Below, piece after piece: positions 25,858 through 54,330 of a DNA stretch of 64,000 bases. The notes under the pieces were generated by a model. The model had not been told where the DNA came from, ran no database searches, and saw only the letters and a program-made list of their open reading frames with translations. Source of the DNA: Variovorax terrae (GTDB lineage Bacteria; Pseudomonadota; Gammaproteobacteria; Burkholderiales; Burkholderiaceae_C); assembly GCF_022809125.1 (NCBI RefSeq), contig NZ_JALGBI010000001.1, positions 2,480,001-2,544,000 of the forward strand, read 5' to 3'. Positions within the stretch are counted from its first letter, which is position 1. Each line of letters starts with the position of its first letter. Both the position numbers and the translations under genes were made by a program.

Positions 25858-26775
25858 TCAACGCGAAAGATACGCCCACAATTGCGCGGCGGCGGACCGG
25901 GTATCCGCGGTGGGGCCCGGTTTTTCCCGAACGGCCAGGATCTGCGCGACGATGGAGACCCCGGTCATGCCGGCCGGAACGGCGCTGACCAGCCGGCCGC
26001 TCGCCACCTCGTTGCGCACCGTGCCTTCGGGAAGGAAAGCGATGCCATGCCCCTCGAGTGCCATGGCCTTCAGGCCTTCCGCCATGTCCATCTCGTAGAC
26101 GCGGTCCAGGTGCAGCGGGACCGGGGACTGCCGGACCAGCAGATCCACCAGGAGCCCCAGATACACGCCCGAGGCGTAGCCGAGATAGGGAAGCGGCTGT
26201 CCGGCCCGGCCCGGCAGTTCGTACAGCGCGCGCCCATCGGACCTCGGCCGGCTCCATGGAGAGACCACCTCTTCTCCCAGGACCACCGTGTCGTAGCGTA
26301 GGCGGTCCAGCTGAAACGGATAGGCCGGATGGAAGAACGCGATCAGGATGTCGCAGTTGCCCTCAACGAGGCTCATCGTGGCATCGTGCGCGTTAAGGGC
26401 AAAGAGCTTGGTTCTGACAGGCCCGATCTCCTTGCGCAGCGAGGTGAGCCATCGCGGAAAAAAAGTGAAGGCCAGACTATGGGAGACCGCGAAATCGATC
26501 GCGGCACGGCTGGCGGTGCTGTGCCCGCGCAGCATGGCACGCGTGCTTTGAAGCGATTGCAGCAGTTCGAGTGCCTGGCCATAGAGCGTCTCGCCTGCCG
26601 CGGTCAGGCGCGGCGGATACGACGCCCTGTCGACGAGGTCGCTGCCGGCCCATGCCTCCAGCGCCTGGATGCGGCGCGAGAACGCGGGCTGGGTGACATG
26701 GCGCAACTGAGCCGAGCGGCTGAAGTTTCTTGTATCGGCAAGGCTGACGAAATCTTCCAACCACTTGATGTCCAT
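25858..26775 (-). CDS. LysR-family regulator, HypT (YjiE)-like
   Basis: The 305-residue LysR protein starts at 'MDIKWLEDFVSLADTRNFSR'; an upstream extension in frame is not conserved-looking. The helix-turn-helix reads 'SAQLRHVTQPAFSRRIQALE', followed by 'WAGSDLVDRASYPPRLTAAG', which resembles the HypT/QseD subgroup. Effector-domain motifs include 'IDFAVSHSLAFTFFPRWL' and 'GIAFLPEGTVRNEVASGRL'. The rhombosortase gene lies 10 bp upstream on the same strand, so both are probably one transcript. Assignment to a hypochlorite response is tentative. Confidence 0.85.
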   Translation of the reverse strand: MDIKWLEDFVSLADTRNFSRSAQLRHVTQPAFSRRIQALEAWAGSDLVDRASYPPRLTAAGETLYGQALELLQSLQSTRAMLRGHSTASRAAIDFAVSHSLAFTFFPRWLTSLRKEIGPVRTKLFALNAHDATMSLVEGNCDILIAFFHPAYPFQLDRLRYDTVVLGEEVVSPWSRPRSDGRALYELPGRAGQPLPYLGYASGVYLGLLVDLLVRQSPVPLHLDRVYEMDMAEGLKAMALEGHGIAFLPEGTVRNEVASGRLVSAVPAGMTGVSIVAQILAVREKPGPTADTRSAAAQLWAYLSR

Positions 26776-26785
26776 GATGGCGGGA

Positions 26786-27442
26786 TTATGAAGCGTCCGA
26801 CGCGCGGCGAACAACCGCCTGCCCTATTCCCGGACGCGCCATCAGGCCGATTGCACAGCCGGCCAGAGCCCCGATCAGGTGCGCCTGCGCCACGATCGTG
26901 CCGCCGATGAGAGCCTCCTCTTCCAGCGAGGGCGGCCCCGCCAGTTGCCACGCCATGCGCGCCGCCAGCGCCAGCAGACCCAGCAGGAAGATGCGCCGGC
27001 CGGCTCGCACACGGTGCGCAAAGGAATAGGCAAACAATCCATAGAGCACGCCCGAGAAGCCTGCATAGTTGGAAATCCCGGGAAATGCGAACAGGCCTGC
27101 GCCTGTCACCGCGCACAGCGCGGCGATGACAGCCGCGTGCCGGCGCCAGGAGCCCTGCCCGAGCCAGACGGCCCATGCCAGCAGGCCCCCCATATTGAGA
27201 GCGCAATGCCAGGCACCGAGATGGACCCAGTGGGCGCTGACGATGCGCCAGGGTTCGGCATGCACCAGGCCGCGCTCGTACCGCAACAGGGCATAAGCGG
27301 GCGGCCCGCACCATTGCAAGGCAAGCATCACGGCCAGCATCCCGGCCACGAGAGCCCACCAGCCCTTTTTCTGCGCTGAAGAAACCCATGCCTCGCCACT
27401 GGCGGGCGCATTCGCGGCAAAAAACTGTTTAACGAATTGCAT
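26786..27442 (-). CDS. Rhombosortase-type rhomboid intramembrane serine protease
   Basis: This 218-residue polytopic membrane protein has six hydrophobic segments and rhomboid residues: 'SAHWVHLGAWHCALNMGG' (His71, His74, His79, Asn83), the nucleophile in 'NYAGFSGVLYGLFAYSFAHR' (Ser130) and the general base in 'AQAHLIGALAGCAIG' (His188). The small size and HWVHLG...HCALN pattern match rhombosortases, which cut proteins bearing GlyGly-CTERM tails. A divergent gene (27745) encodes a protein with such a tail, which strongly supports this call. It is probably co-transcribed with the downstream LysR gene. Confidence 0.85.
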   Translation of the reverse strand: MQFVKQFFAANAPASGEAWVSSAQKKGWWALVAGMLAVMLALQWCGPPAYALLRYERGLVHAEPWRIVSAHWVHLGAWHCALNMGGLLAWAVWLGQGSWRRHAAVIAALCAVTGAGLFAFPGISNYAGFSGVLYGLFAYSFAHRVRAGRRIFLLGLLALAARMAWQLAGPPSLEEEALIGGTIVAQAHLIGALAGCAIGLMARPGIGQAVVRRASDAS

Positions 27443-27744
27443 CGAAAGAATTCATATTCATACAGAGCATTGTCGAATGTCGTTTTTGCATGATCGTTCA
27501 TGAAACTTCGAGGCTCGTCTCACTTCACAGGCACGCTCTTTGCGAACCAAGGGTTAACCCAAATGAAAGGAAGCCCGCGAATTAGAACTTTGAACTGACC
27601 ATGCACAAACCGCATCGTGGCATACCCAAATGGCGTTGGCTGCGCAACTAAGACCATCGCTATAAACGCGTCGGCCTTTCTCGAAGTTTAACGACGACGC
27701 TGGACCAAGGTCCATTCACAACACTGATTGAGGAGAAGTACTTG
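27443..27744. other. 302-bp divergent intergenic region between rhombosortase and M14 carboxypeptidase genes
   Basis: No gene of credible length is present. The region is AT-richer than its surroundings. It has a 10-bp perfect palindrome GGGTTAACCC (27551-27560) and an inverted repeat CATGA-TCGT-TCATG (27489-27502). The promoters for both divergent genes must lie here, but I cannot place -35/-10 boxes with confidence. AGGAG at 27731 is the ribosome-binding site for the carboxypeptidase gene. Confidence 0.5.
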
Positions 27745-30024
27745 ATGAAGATAAAAGTTGAAAATTTGCGCAAGCTGCGCGGCCCCATCGTGGTGGCAGC
27801 GCTGGCCGCTTGCATAGGAGCCGGACTGGCCCAAAGCTCGGGGGCTGACGTCTGGTCGGTCAAGGTCCGCTACACCAGCGAGGCACAACTCAAGCAGTTG
27901 ACCGACTTGCTGGATCACCCGTATGTGGATCAGAGAAACCACACCGTCTTGGCCGAAATCGGCGGCGGCGAGTTGAAAGCCCTGCGCGACATGGGCATGA
28001 CCGTCGACATCGACGAGGCAGAAACCAAGCGAATCCAGGAATGGCTGGCTGCGCGCACGGCCGACGTCGCCTCCGGCGCGATCAAGCGCAGCGACCGCGA
28101 ACAGCCCAGCAGTGTGGCCAATGGAGCGCATTCCTGCTACCGCACCGTGGAGCAGGTCTATACATCTTTCGATGAGCTAAAAGCGAAATTCCCGAAATTC
28201 GTCGAAATCAAGGATCTCGGCCCCGCCTGGATGGGCACGCAGATCAAGCCGCCGTTTACTGTCGGCGGCCAGCCCGACAGCTCCTGGTCCAACTACCGCC
28301 AGCTGCTCGCGAAGTATCTCCCCGCAGCCTTCCTCCAGCGCTTCGACCTCACCAAGCTGCCGGACCAGCCGCTGAACGTCAAGGCCATCGTCGTCGGCAA
28401 CTTCGCGATCCAGAATGAAAAGACCCCTCGCATGGTCTGGACCGGCGGCATCCATGCGCGCGAGTACGCGCCGCAGGAAGTCGGCGTGAAATTCATCGAG
28501 TGGCTGCTGAACAACTACGGCAAGGACGCCAACGCCACGATGATGCTGAACATGAATCAGTATCACCTGATCATTCACAACCCGGACGGCCGCAAGCTGG
28601 CCGAGCAGGACGTCTCGGCACGCCAGCGCAAGAACACCAACTATTCGAGCGCGGCCTGTACGACCAACACGAACGTGCAGATCACCGTCCCCAGCACGAC
28701 ATCCACGCTCGGCTACTACACCTCGACGGTCTCTGTGACCAACACCATCGCCTCGGGCGTTGACCTGAACCGCAACTATCCGTTCGGCTGGGGCACAGGC
28801 GGCGGCGGCGGTTCGGACGGCAACTCCTGCGGCGAGACCTTCCGCGGCGTGGCGCCTTCTTCCGAGCCGGAGACCACGGCGATCCTGAACTACGTCCGCG
28901 GCACCACCTTCGTCGGCACCGACAAGATGTGGACCGTGAGCGGAACCACCGTGACCGGCACGACGTCGCTCACCACGACGCCGGCCAAGACCTGCAGTTG
29001 GACGGGCGGCGTACTTCCGGACGGGCGGCCCAAGAAGCCCGAGTTCTGCAACCCCGAAAACCGCGACAAGTCTCGGCTGGATGTCAACAACGAGAATCCT
29101 CTCGACTGGCAAACCGCGGCTGACGAGGACTACGGCGGCGGCATGTTCATCGACCTGCACAGCAATGCCCGCGCCGTGCTGTGGCCCTGGGGCGTGGAGC
29201 GCACCGAGAACGGCTTCAACACCCACACGCCCAACAACAAGGGCATGGCGGTGATCGGCCAGCGGATGGCGTTCCACAACAACTACTCGTCACAGCAGCT
29301 GCTCAGCTACAACACCGAGGGCACGACCAAGGACGCCTTCTACGGCTACCTCGGCGCACCGTCGTACACGGTGGAAATGGGCCGCTCGTTCTACGAGGAC
29401 TGCGGCGTGTTCGACCGCGAAACCTATCCGGAGAACTTCAACGGCTTCCACTACCTGAGCCGCATCCTGCATCGCGTGTACAAGCTGCCTTTCGGGCCCG
29501 ACACGGTCGGTGTCAAGGTCGGACTCGGTGTATCGGTGACGCCTGGCACAAAGGTGGCGCTCTCTGCCACGGTCGACGACAACCGGTATCGCTACTCGAA
29601 CGCCGGGCAGTCGACCATCAAGCCGCCGCCGTACCCCGTGGTCTACAACATCAAGTCGGCCAACGCCTACATCGGCAAGCTGCCCTGGGAAGAAGGCGCC
29701 AAGGCGATCCCCCTGACGCTGTCCACCTCGGACCAGGCACGTTCGGACTTCCCGAACGCCACGATGACCGCCGGTGGCATGCTGGACACGACCGGGCTCG
29801 CTCCAGGCCGCCACATGGTCTATGTGCAGGGCGTGAATGCCGATAACAAGCCGGGCGCCGTGTCTGCGGCCTTCCTGGACATCGCCCAGACCCCCGGCGG
29901 CGAAGTGCCAGGCATTCCGAGCGCCACGAGCAGTGGTGGTGGTTCATTCGGCGCCGCCGATCTGGCATTCCTGATGCTGGGCGGATTCGCTCTGCTGGTG
30001 GTTCGCCGCCGCAAGCAACAGTAA
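27745..30024 (+). CDS. Secreted M14 zinc carboxypeptidase with GlyGly-CTERM sorting tail
   Basis: This is a 759-residue exported metallopeptidase. The signal peptide ends near 'CIGAGLA'. The M14 domain has zinc ligands in 'GGIHAREYAPQEV' (His237, Glu240) and 'GMFIDLHSNARAVLWPWG' (His472), the substrate Asn-Arg in 'GVDLNRNYPFGWG', and the catalytic Glu in 'YTVEMGRSFYEDC' (Glu544). Spacing from HxxE to the third ligand is ~230 residues, much longer than in classical carboxypeptidases, because of a Thr-rich insert. The last ~30 residues are a Gly/Ser stretch ('TSSGGGSFGAA'), a hydrophobic helix ('DLAFLMLGGFALLVV') and RRRK, the layout of GlyGly-CTERM. AGGAG precedes the ATG at 27745; an adjacent TTG is less likely. 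Confidence 0.9.
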   Translation: MKIKVENLRKLRGPIVVAALAACIGAGLAQSSGADVWSVKVRYTSEAQLKQLTDLLDHPYVDQRNHTVLAEIGGGELKALRDMGMTVDIDEAETKRIQEWLAARTADVASGAIKRSDREQPSSVANGAHSCYRTVEQVYTSFDELKAKFPKFVEIKDLGPAWMGTQIKPPFTVGGQPDSSWSNYRQLLAKYLPAAFLQRFDLTKLPDQPLNVKAIVVGNFAIQNEKTPRMVWTGGIHAREYAPQEVGVKFIEWLLNNYGKDANATMMLNMNQYHLIIHNPDGRKLAEQDVSARQRKNTNYSSAACTTNTNVQITVPSTTSTLGYYTSTVSVTNTIASGVDLNRNYPFGWGTGGGGGSDGNSCGETFRGVAPSSEPETTAILNYVRGTTFVGTDKMWTVSGTTVTGTTSLTTTPAKTCSWTGGVLPDGRPKKPEFCNPENRDKSRLDVNNENPLDWQTAADEDYGGGMFIDLHSNARAVLWPWGVERTENGFNTHTPNNKGMAVIGQRMAFHNNYSSQQLLSYNTEGTTKDAFYGYLGAPSYTVEMGRSFYEDCGVFDRETYPENFNGFHYLSRILHRVYKLPFGPDTVGVKVGLGVSVTPGTKVALSATVDDNRYRYSNAGQSTIKPPPYPVVYNIKSANAYIGKLPWEEGAKAIPLTLSTSDQARSDFPNATMTAGGMLDTTGLAPGRHMVYVQGVNADNKPGAVSAAFLDIAQTPGGEVPGIPSATSSGGGSFGAADLAFLMLGGFALLVVRRRKQQ

Positions 30025-30030
30025 GCATTT

Positions 30031-30054
30031 CCGTGGCGCCTGCAGGCGCCACGG
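30031..30054 (+). terminator. Perfect 24-bp palindromic hairpin after the carboxypeptidase gene
   Basis: CCGTGGCGCC-TGCA-GGCGCCACGG forms a 10-bp stem right after the stop codon at 30024. There is no T-run, so it may be a partial terminator or an mRNA-stabilising hairpin between the carboxypeptidase and lipoprotein genes. Confidence 0.5.
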
Positions 30055-30126
30055 CCTCACAGATCAATAGTTCGGCTGCCTTTCCAGGAAAAGCGAATGC
30101 GCGGCCGATTAGGAGATAGAACGATT

Positions 30127-32040
30127 ATGAAGATGAAAAAATTGAGCCGCTTGGCGCTCGCGCTCGTCGCGACGTCCAGCGTGATTCTTGCCGGATGCGG
30201 CGGTAGCGACTCCGGTGGTCTGGGATCGACCGGTCCCGGCACGGGCGGCGGTGGTGGTGGCACCACGCCCGGCGTTTCCACCGTTGCCGTGAGCGGTATC
30301 GTCGCCGATGGGCTGCTGCAGAACGCGAAAGTGTGCCTGGACGTCAACAACAACCGAATCTGCGACGCCAACGAACCCAGCGCCATGACGGACGCAGCCG
30401 GCGCTTACACCATCAACTCGGCGGTCGGCACGAACTTCCCCGTGCTGGCCATGGTCACCGCCGGCGCCACTGTCGATTCCGACTACGGACTGCTGAACGA
30501 CAGCTACATGCTGATGGCGCCGGCCGGTAAGCCAGAGTTCGTGAGCCCCTATACCACCTTGGTTCAGTCCGAGGTTGACTCCGGCCGCTCGCAGAACCTG
30601 CGCGAAGCGGAGAGCACGGTGCTCGCCGGTATGGTGGGCACGGCCGGACAGGTCGGCGGACTCAGCCTGTACTCCAACTACACCGATGTCTCCGCCGGAG
30701 CGCCCAGCGCAGTCCAGCTGAAGATGTACGGTGCGGCGCAGCTGCTGGCGAAGAGCTTCGCAGCGACCCAGACCCTCGTGGGCTCCAACTCGGGCATGGA
30801 ACTGTCCGCAGCGCTGGGCCAGGCGGCTGGCAGCTCCATGAAGCACCTGCTCACGCAGGTCTCCGGCACGCTCACCCTGGCCAACCGCGACACCATCTTC
30901 GCTGCGGTGAAGGACAGCGTGGTTCCGACCACCGCGACCCTAGCGTCGATCGCCAAGGCCAAGGCCAAGACCGCGGCCGAGCCAATCGAAGGCGCCTGGA
31001 TTCGCACCACCGGCAACCAGAAGGAAGTGTTCCTGTTCGCAGGCGACGGCACCTTCGTGCACCAGACCGTTGCAACGGCCATCACCTCCACCACCGCCTT
31101 CGACAACGGCTTCGGCTCCCGCTACGGCCGCTACACCTTCGAAGGCGGCGTGCTGAAGACCAGCCTCATCGAAGCTTCCGGCCAATCCGGCCCGACCAAC
31201 GGTTCCGTGAGCGGCGTCACCATCTCGGGCAACACGCTGTCCGGCGGGGGGCTGAGCCTCACGCGCCTGACCAGCGCGACGAATCCGCTCGTTGGCGGGT
31301 GGATCACGCCGAACGGAAGCGACAAGCCGCAATTCCTGCTGTTCCTCGACGACGCAACTTACGTGCACAGCACGTTCTACGGCGAAGATGACTTCCAGAC
31401 GGGCAGCTCCTCGTTCTTCGAAACCGCCCGCTCGGCCGGCATGCAGCGCGGCGCCTATTCGCAGACGACCACGGTGTCCAACATCACGCAGATCAGCTTC
31501 TCGACGATCGCCACGGCCCAGATCGCCACCACCGGCTCGCCGGTGGTCATCGACTTCAACGGCAACCTCTCCATTCCTGGAGACCCGGGTGTCGCCGTGC
31601 TGCAGTCGGATGGCGCCGTCTCGATGGAAGGCGCACGCTTCGTCAAGCTGGGCACCGTAATGGGCGCCAAGGCCATCAGCGGCCTGTCCGAAACCACCCG
31701 CAGCCGCCTGTGGTCCGGCCGGTACTTCTCGCGCAGCCTCGGCGGCAACCCCGCCCTGAACCAGTACATCTACGTGCGCGGCCCGAACGACGTCATCACC
31801 TTCAACCAGGCTGTCGCCGGCTCGGATGTCAACCAGCCATGCGCCCCGGTGGTCGGCCCGTTCACCTCGGTCGACCCGGCCGACGGTGTCTTGAAGCAGT
31901 TCGTCATCGGAACCGGCACGGCCGCATCGGCTGGCTACGCCCAGCGTCGCCTGAACGTCGGCACACCGGCCTCGTTCCTGGTCTACACGCCGATCACCCG
32001 CCCCACCAACGCCACCGCGCGCTGCGCGCTGCCTTTGTAA
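30127..32040 (+). CDS. Large exported lipoprotein, function unknown
   Basis: The 637-residue protein has a lipoprotein signal 'MKMKKLSRLALALVATSSVI' with lipobox 'LAGC', then a Gly/Thr linker. A domain with 'AKVCLDVNNNRICDANEPSA' follows, a calcium-loop-like dockerin/thrombospondin-type motif known from surface proteins, and after it 'TDAAGAYTINSAVG'. The rest is beta-rich, with two similar segments: 'IEGAWIRTTGNQKEVFLFAG' and 'LVGGWITPNGSDKPQFLLFL', each followed by 'DGTFVHQT' or 'DATYVHST'. AGGAG lies 11 bases before the ATG at 30127. It follows the carboxypeptidase by ~100 bp and ends in a strong terminator. It may be a surface protein co-expressed with the peptidase. Confidence 0.8.
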   Translation: MKMKKLSRLALALVATSSVILAGCGGSDSGGLGSTGPGTGGGGGGTTPGVSTVAVSGIVADGLLQNAKVCLDVNNNRICDANEPSAMTDAAGAYTINSAVGTNFPVLAMVTAGATVDSDYGLLNDSYMLMAPAGKPEFVSPYTTLVQSEVDSGRSQNLREAESTVLAGMVGTAGQVGGLSLYSNYTDVSAGAPSAVQLKMYGAAQLLAKSFAATQTLVGSNSGMELSAALGQAAGSSMKHLLTQVSGTLTLANRDTIFAAVKDSVVPTTATLASIAKAKAKTAAEPIEGAWIRTTGNQKEVFLFAGDGTFVHQTVATAITSTTAFDNGFGSRYGRYTFEGGVLKTSLIEASGQSGPTNGSVSGVTISGNTLSGGGLSLTRLTSATNPLVGGWITPNGSDKPQFLLFLDDATYVHSTFYGEDDFQTGSSSFFETARSAGMQRGAYSQTTTVSNITQISFSTIATAQIATTGSPVVIDFNGNLSIPGDPGVAVLQSDGAVSMEGARFVKLGTVMGAKAISGLSETTRSRLWSGRYFSRSLGGNPALNQYIYVRGPNDVITFNQAVAGSDVNQPCAPVVGPFTSVDPADGVLKQFVIGTGTAASAGYAQRRLNVGTPASFLVYTPITRPTNATARCALPL

Positions 32041-52980: not shown

Positions 52981-54330
52981 TCAGTCCGAAAACCCGGGCA
53001 AGGCATCTCTGGACGCCGCACCGGCAAGATAGGATTGCCAGACGGCGCCTTCCCTCTGCTCCGAACGGCCGGGCAGCAGCGGCTGGAGGTCGGTCGCCTT
53101 GGCGATCGGCTTCACAAGATGCGGTGTGACCACGATCACCAGTTCCCGCTCGTTCTGCTGGTAGTGCTGCCGCTTGAAAAACGCGCCCAGGACCGGGATG
53201 TCGCCCAGCATGGGAATTTTGTCGAGGTCCGACACTGTGGTCCGGCTCACCAGGCCCCCGATCACGAAGCTCTCGCCATCGCCGAGCTCCACCATCGTGT
53301 CGGCACGGCGCGTGGTGATGGCGGGCACCGACACACCGTTCAGGGTCACCGCGTTGCTGAAATCCAGGTCACTGGCTTCCGGCGCCACCTTGAGCGCGAT
53401 ACGGTCGTTGGACAGCACCGTGGGTGTCAGCATGAGCCCGATGCCAAAGGGCTTGTACTGGATGCTCACCGTCCCAAAGGCCTGGGGCACAGGCACCGGG
53501 ATTTCGCCTCCTGCCAGGAAACTGGCACTCTGGCCCGACAGCGCGACCAGTGTCGGCTCCGCCAGAACGCGCGCCAGGCCGTTGCCTTCCAGAATGCCCA
53601 GATTGGTCACGATGCCGCTGCGGCTGGAACTGAGCACGAGGTTGAAGGCCTGTGTCAACGGGCTCGCGCCCGTGAAGGCGATCGGGTCGAGCGACCCTCC
53701 GCCTGTCATGCTCTTGAGCCCGCCGGGGGCAAATGCTCCAAAGCCAAAGCCATTGCGATTGGTGAAGATGTTGAAACCGGCCTCCTTGAGCACGCTCTTG
53801 CTGAACTCGACCACTTTCACATCGACCTGCACCGTGTTGCTTTTCACGGCGACCGTCGATCGGTCCACCAGCACCGGCTTGCCCGCTGCTTCGTTGGCCA
53901 CGCCGGCAATCCGGTTGTGGCTGGCCATATCGGGCAGCACGCCATCGATCACCACCGTCTTGCCATACGCATCGACGCGCGACTTGGCATCGGCGCCCAG
54001 CAGCGAAGCGCTGGCGGCACCGGACACCTGGACGTCGTAGCTGATGGCTGTTTTCTGGCCTTTGGGCCAGATCATCAGCGTGGTGCGGCCAGGCGCTTTT
54101 CCGACCACCAGTACACGGGCATCGCCTGCGCTCTTGCCGGCCTTCATGATCACCGTATCGGCCACGGCAGGGTCTCCAATGGCCAGGCGATCCAGCCCTT
54201 TCTCCCAGACCAGCTCCTGCTGCGCCCCCACGGTCAGCGCAAGCTGATGCGCCTCGGCCGCCGCGGCCGGCGGCACCGCAGTCCCCAGCAACACCAAGAA
54301 GGGCCACACATGAAGGAGCTTTGAATTCAT
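52981..54330 (-). CDS. cpaC: CpaC/RcpA outer-membrane secretin of the Tad pilus
   Basis: The 449-residue protein (start MNSKLLHVWPFLVLLGTAVP) has a signal peptide, a BON/N-domain region ('VLVVGKAPGRTTLMIWPKGQ', 'KTVVIDGVLPDMASHNRI') and the secretin core. The core reads 'QVDVKVVEFSKSVLKEAGFN', 'VLAEPTLVALSGQSASFLAG', 'GEIPVPVPQAFGTVSIQYKP' and 'VIGGLVSRTTVSDLDKIPML'. It forms the outer-membrane pore for the Flp fibre. It lies 32 bp after cpaB. Confidence 0.93.
   Translation of the reverse strand: MNSKLLHVWPFLVLLGTAVPPAAAAEAHQLALTVGAQQELVWEKGLDRLAIGDPAVADTVIMKAGKSAGDARVLVVGKAPGRTTLMIWPKGQKTAISYDVQVSGAASASLLGADAKSRVDAYGKTVVIDGVLPDMASHNRIAGVANEAAGKPVLVDRSTVAVKSNTVQVDVKVVEFSKSVLKEAGFNIFTNRNGFGFGAFAPGGLKSMTGGGSLDPIAFTGASPLTQAFNLVLSSSRSGIVTNLGILEGNGLARVLAEPTLVALSGQSASFLAGGEIPVPVPQAFGTVSIQYKPFGIGLMLTPTVLSNDRIALKVAPEASDLDFSNAVTLNGVSVPAITTRRADTMVELGDGESFVIGGLVSRTTVSDLDKIPMLGDIPVLGAFFKRQHYQQNERELVIVVTPHLVKPIAKATDLQPLLPGRSEQREGAVWQSYLAGAASRDALPGFSD

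Follow-up and report, generated by a model that had tools for sequence, protein, structure and literature searches.

A rhombosortase gene and the divergent gene of a secreted M14 zinc carboxypeptidase probably encode an enzyme and its neighbouring substrate, one of two such lines in the genome of Variovorax terrae (G000). Both genes lie in the 64,000-nucleotide stretch of DNA that we analysed (the window; G000:C1:2480001-2544000; Table 1). The preliminary description of this DNA had read them as a dedicated sorting pair with a LysR gene in the protease operon. Its assignments of enzyme and substrate stood up to the analysis overall; a dedicated one-to-one relationship did not, and the LysR gene is not conserved beside the enzyme in the loci compared.

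Table 1 Features of the predicted sorting locus (positions in the window)
Feature	Position	Strand	Basis
LysR-type regulator	25858..26777	-	Pfam HTH_1 and LysR_substrate; likely start ATG near 26777
Rhombosortase, Tyr-type clade, 218 aa	26786..27442	-	TIGR03902, alignments, tree
Secreted M14 zinc carboxypeptidase with C-terminal sorting tail, predicted substrate	27745..30024	+	PF00246, 117 bits
GlyGly-CTERM-like tail: Gly/Ser motif, hydrophobic helix, RRRK	29923..30021	+	Profile A3, 53.8 bits; homologues
Lipoprotein gene, conserved neighbour of the M14 family	30097..32040	+	10/11 related loci

The minus-strand enzyme

We compared the minus-strand open reading frame (26786-27442) with models of rhomboid families. 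Its score to TIGR03902, the rhombosortase model, was 108.7 bits and so above the curated cut-off of 84, whereas two GlpG models gave 26.8 and 16.5 bits (cut-offs 250 and 335). Ser130 and His188, which form the rhomboid Ser/His dyad, were invariant in an alignment of 24 rows. Two motifs described for rhombosortases besides SGxxH, namely WRxxS/T and AHxxGxxxG (PMC3237569), are present as WRIVS and AHLIGALAG. The SGxxH signature itself is not: after the catalytic Ser, the enzyme reads SGVLY, with Tyr134 in place of the His that is found in 'virtually all' rhombosortases (PMC3237569), a wording of 2011 that leaves room for known exceptions. The family profile of the enzyme matches GlpG structures, and comparison with these structures indicates that Tyr is the residue at the corresponding position of GlpG. 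The enzyme thus shares with GlpG proteases the rhomboid fold (by profile match), the dyad and the Tyr, but differs from them in its low scores to the GlpG models. These results support the identification of the gene as a small rhombosortase, as had been proposed from its catalytic residues and layout; the TIGR03902 search suggested at that time as a check has borne this out.

The carboxypeptidase and its tail

The divergent open reading frame (27742-30024, plus strand) matches Pfam Peptidase_M14 (PF00246) at 117 bits. Its likely start, judged from the sequence, is an ATG one codon downstream of the listed TTG, approximately 300 bases from the rhombosortase gene. H238, E241, H473 and E545, which we take to be the zinc and catalytic positions of the M14 family, were invariant in an 18-row alignment, and the N terminus is signal-like by eye. 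The signal sequence (27745-27813, plus strand) contains a lipobox-like ALAAC, the Cys of which is not kept in the near relatives P0004 and P0005. The protein matches the catalytic core region of carboxypeptidases T and A, but the match spans only profile positions 231-373, and the window protein adds a C-terminal part and the sorting tail.

The carboxypeptidase ends in SGGGSFGAADLAFLMLGGFALLVVRRRKQQ, a Gly-rich motif without Cys followed by a hydrophobic helix and a basic cluster, which agrees with the GlyGly-CTERM signature of a Cys-free Gly motif, a hydrophobic stretch and a basic C-terminal end. By an ad hoc criterion (a Gly-rich, hydrophobic, basic C terminus), a comparable tail is kept in 77 of 87 M14 homologues with at least 44% identity, whereas it was found in none of 33 distant M14 proteins; judging from this count, conservation of the tail therefore exceeds chance. 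The ten homologues without it comprise six that are seemingly shortened or frameshifted (P0037, P0068, P0070, P0084, P0085 and P0087), one that extends beyond its helix (P0086) and three with another tail (P0078, P0079 and P0081). The last three, relatives of the Comamonas type, have a Gly-poor tail instead, and the only one scanned, P0078, has a choice-of-anchor U domain (73.5 bits).

The GlyGly-CTERM model TIGR03501 did not match the M14 tail at E up to 1, and a genome search with it returned no match at E up to 10. The preliminary description had named a missing hit of the tail to this model in advance as refuting its reading, and on this point the result went against it. The only tail model to score was MYXO-CTERM, at 14.8 bits, below its cut-off of 20. 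According to its authors, TIGR03501 cannot find true examples exhaustively (PMC3237569). Since the homologues conserve the M14 tail, and since the GlyGly tail of an S8 subtilase (below) was likewise missed, we conclude from these comparisons that TIGR03501 is too insensitive for tails of this kind.

A second enzyme and a second tailed protein

The genome holds another rhombosortase (C3:462711-463160, 96.5 bits to TIGR03902; locus L005, 9655-10263, minus strand), so that two enzymes of this family accompany the M14 tail. The second enzyme is of the SGLIH type and has WT for WR in the WRxxS/T motif. Within 5 kb of copies of its group we observed a ferritin-like gene in 45/113 and an rfaE2-like gene in 28/113. 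The genome gave a third rhomboid-like match, at 25.3 bits, which we set aside as an ordinary rhomboid-domain protein by eye.

TIGR03501 had suggested no tailed protein, and a 19-row tail profile, A3, a single one. A3, the rows of which include tails of several proteins later found with it, matched just the M14 tail in G000 (itself among the rows); its next match, at 15.0 bits, does not lie at a protein C terminus. Across 250 genomes A3 yielded 87 at E 0.01, mostly helix and basic end alone, and missed tails otherwise observed in G034, G228 and G059. A direct check of S8 proteins ruled out a single tailed protein in G000, as it revealed an S8 subtilase (G000:C3:398966-400780; L260) with a GlyGly tail ending SGGGGGSTGWLWGAALWLLAGLAWRRRA, 62 kb from the second rhombosortase. 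Because this tail had escaped both TIGR03501 and A3, further tails may exist in the genome. We conclude that G000 has two predicted rhombosortases and, by the same sequence evidence, at least two GlyGly-tailed proteins. The notion of one dedicated enzyme for one substrate is not supported in view of this finding and of the coexistence elsewhere of one enzyme with both substrate types. A GspD was also detected in G000 (606.6 bits). Within the window, 53095-53832 (minus strand) gives a secretin-type match to the GspD model at 123.5 bits, below the cut-off.

A Tyr-type clade linked to tailed proteins

A quick-method tree (140 rows, LG+G4, support by SH-aLRT only, long branches flagged) places the window rhombosortase in a clade of 16 rows with an SH-aLRT of 97. 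All 16 have Tyr at the signature-His position; in the 113 genomic copies outside the clade this position is His (108), Tyr (2), Met (2) or Phe (1). We rejected a strict Tyr code, as Tyr also occurs outside the clade (two of the 113 other genomic copies; P0142, P0146) and His-type copies too have tailed neighbours.

We surveyed 250 genomes of the family. TIGR03902 matched at E 1e-17 or better in 120 of them, with 87 of the 120 exceeding the curated cut-off and three genomes having two matches; the M14 protein was found in seven at E 1e-60. Neighbourhoods of approximately 5 kb on each side were taken for 120 rhombosortase copies and for the two of the window genome (122 in total). The two weakest matches, in G127 and G129, were excluded, and a copy in G034 (a split match, missed at the survey threshold) was added; some neighbourhoods were shortened by contig ends, and L095 and L097 were extended by 2 kb on the M14 side.

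Of the nine genomic copies that belong to the window clade, seven have a GlyGly-tailed protein within 5 kb. The neighbour is an M14 protein in the window, L092, L095 and L097; in the other three loci it is a GH10 protein, identified by Pfam in L091 and L093 and by resemblance in L094. No tailed neighbour was found within 5 kb of L096 and L098; the genome of L098 is G034, whose M14 gene sits on a different contig. The clade is present in 5/7 M14 genomes versus 4/243 others (Fisher p 3e-7, kinship ignored). These data support the view that the window clade repeatedly adjoins GlyGly-tailed proteins, and linkage to proteins as unrelated as M14 and GH10 counts in favour of an enzyme–substrate pair. 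In the other group, as read from printed candidates, a GlyGly-tailed gene lies within 5 kb of 7/113 copies (L128, L145, L171, L191, L194, L195 and L206), and Pfam confirms S8 in five of these seven neighbours.

Of the 13 loci that an M14-alignment scan of public genomes recovered, 11 (L008-L018) are near relatives. Each of the 11 genomes of these near loci has a rhombosortase above the cut-off, and all 11 M14 proteins have the tail by eye. The Tyr-type enzyme lies within the fetched locus in seven (L009-L014 and L017) and on a different contig in the L008 genome; in the case of L015, L016 and L018, the copy that passes the cut-off is of the His type and lies outside the locus. The genomes of L008, L009, L014, L016 and L017 are also among the 250 (identical coordinates), so the scan is not an independent sample. 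The nearest relatives of the window pair are 93% identical for the carboxypeptidase (P0001) but only 55% for the rhombosortase (P0122). These two probably lie together, and from the sequences the rhombosortase seems to evolve much faster than its M14 substrate.

Co-occurrence with S8 subtilases

The S8 family (E 1e-50) occurs in 104 of the 120 rhombosortase genomes, compared with 15 of the 130 others (p 9e-36, kinship ignored). Such co-occurrence, in which the S8 gene lies elsewhere in the genome, speaks against regarding the other-group enzymes as orphans. At S8 loci, a Gly-rich tail was present by eye in 24/30 and lacking in 1/30, the remaining five being counted neither way; the M14 and S8 kinds of tail both have the Gly motif, helix and basic end. 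Five genomes that hold only the window clade at the survey threshold (G083, G134, G161, G188 and G226) have no S8 family member at E 1e-50. Both enzyme groups are retained in G000, G081 and G186. Single enzymes coexist with both M14 and S8 in G034 (window clade) and in G090 and G194 (other group), which implies that the lines are not strictly separate. In G034 (C6:187961-193586), the M14, lipoprotein and S8 genes are consecutive on the same strand and both proteases have GlyGly-like tails; the sole rhombosortase of that genome to exceed the cut-off lies on a different contig.

Neighbouring genes

The lipoprotein gene follows the M14 gene in every near locus but L017, with 48-53% identity. At full length (E 1e-170 or better) it was found in 6/7 M14 genomes and in 0/243 others (p 2e-11); 35 further genomes gave only partial matches, of at most approximately 75 bits. 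Pfam assigned it no family at E up to 1, and its near homologues are all named 'hypothetical protein' in the sources. By gene order and co-occurrence, we consider it a conserved partner of the M14 gene.

The LysR gene probably starts ten bases past the rhombosortase stop, a gap that makes a shared transcript plausible, so the operon proposed in the preliminary description is reasonable as far as spacing goes. Neither this gene nor the TlpA-like and transglutaminase-like genes were near any of the eight other fetched clade members. We therefore rejected LysR as a component of the system; its place beside the rhombosortase is probably incidental. A sigma-70 consensus scan found no promoter in 26700-30200.

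Comparison with known systems

Adjacent rhombosortase/GlyGly-CTERM pairs were published in 2011 by Haft and Varghese (PMC3237569), including those of Cupriavidus metallidurans CH34, in which each of two rhombosortases has one adjacent target (PMC3237569). The window enzyme and its tailed target are neighbours in the same way; unlike in CH34, only one of the two enzymes of G000 adjoins a tailed protein, and the window enzyme carries Tyr rather than the signature His (PMC3237569). As far as these sources go, adjacency is thus long known and the active-site Tyr is what is unusual here. The main text of PMC3237569 makes no mention of a carboxypeptidase, and in the rhombosortase/GlyGly-CTERM literature, mostly searched by term only, we found no mention of an M14 partner, a xylanase partner or a Tyr-type clade; a term search of it for Comamonadaceae also gave no match.

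The model for the window pair is RssP and VesB of V. cholerae, which combine rhomboid cleavage of a GlyGly tail with type II secretion. Cleavage of VesB by RssP falls within the tail and leaves a new C-terminal Gly, to which a group containing glycerophosphoethanolamine is attached; the type II system carries VesB to the surface (PMC6219818, PMC11389362). V. cholerae has one rhombosortase and six tailed proteins (PMC13393428), whereas in G000 two enzymes accompany at least two tailed proteins, as predicted from the genes.

Proposed mechanism and alternatives

The mechanism that we propose builds on the observed genes, family matches, tail conservation, clade, linkage and co-occurrence. An N-terminal signal would direct export of the carboxypeptidase, and the C-terminal helix would anchor it in the inner membrane. 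By analogy with VesB, the protein may then be cleaved, joined to lipid and located at the surface. The second enzyme, of the other group, would most likely serve the S8 subtilase, and cross-processing could occur; the assignment of each enzyme to its substrate is one that we infer. In support of this reading we count the TIGR03902 score, the tails of 77/87 homologues, the rhombosortases of 11/11 M14-locus genomes, the 7/9 linkage, the 5/7 M14 genomes, S8 in 104/120 and GspD. Against it count the absent TIGR03501 match, the GlpG-like Tyr134 and the tail-less neighbourhoods L096 and L098, as do the tailed M14 proteins without a Tyr-type enzyme over the cut-off (G090, G194, L015, L016 and L018).

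Two of these points, the absent TIGR03501 match and the GlpG-like Tyr134, would also fit an ordinary rhomboid protease beside a carboxypeptidase whose tail is an uncut membrane anchor. We regard this as very improbable, given a TIGR03902 score well above the cut-off with GlpG scores far below theirs, the conserved M14 tail and the way in which the clade is repeatedly linked to tailed proteins of unrelated families. A better case, although still a doubtful one, can be made for two enzymes acting redundantly on a common pool of GlyGly-tailed proteins, with adjacency reflecting joint inheritance only: in G034, G090 and G194 one enzyme, of one group or the other, occurs together with both substrates, and the two kinds of tail share their three parts. 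The retention of both enzymes in G000, G081 and G186 is at odds with such redundancy, as are the different usual neighbours and co-occurring proteins of the two groups. At the opposite extreme, the window enzyme might cut the M14 protein alone, with nothing else cutting it. The head-to-head genes, the tailed neighbours of 7/9 clade copies and the five window-clade-only genomes without S8 are consistent with this strict dedication, but two enzymes and two tailed proteins in G000, and the one-enzyme genomes with both M14 and S8, make it unlikely.

Our preferred reading therefore stays with a rhombosortase and its neighbouring substrate, in a genome with a second such line. A more speculative extension, for which we see only a slim chance, is that the Tyr-type enzymes, lacking the signature His, constitute an insulated second line of sorting alongside the His-type enzyme that is family-wide, and travel with their own tailed carboxypeptidase or xylanase. 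Two rhombosortase lines would then operate separately in one cell, with the Tyr/His difference beside the catalytic Ser helping to determine which tails are cleaved.

A separate lead is how closely the M14 gene is paired with an uncharacterized lipoprotein gene. Genomes with two rhombosortase groups and two tailed substrates offer a natural test of tail discrimination, and the Tyr-type clade, which breaks the published signature yet stays linked to tails, can reveal whether the His matters for sorting.
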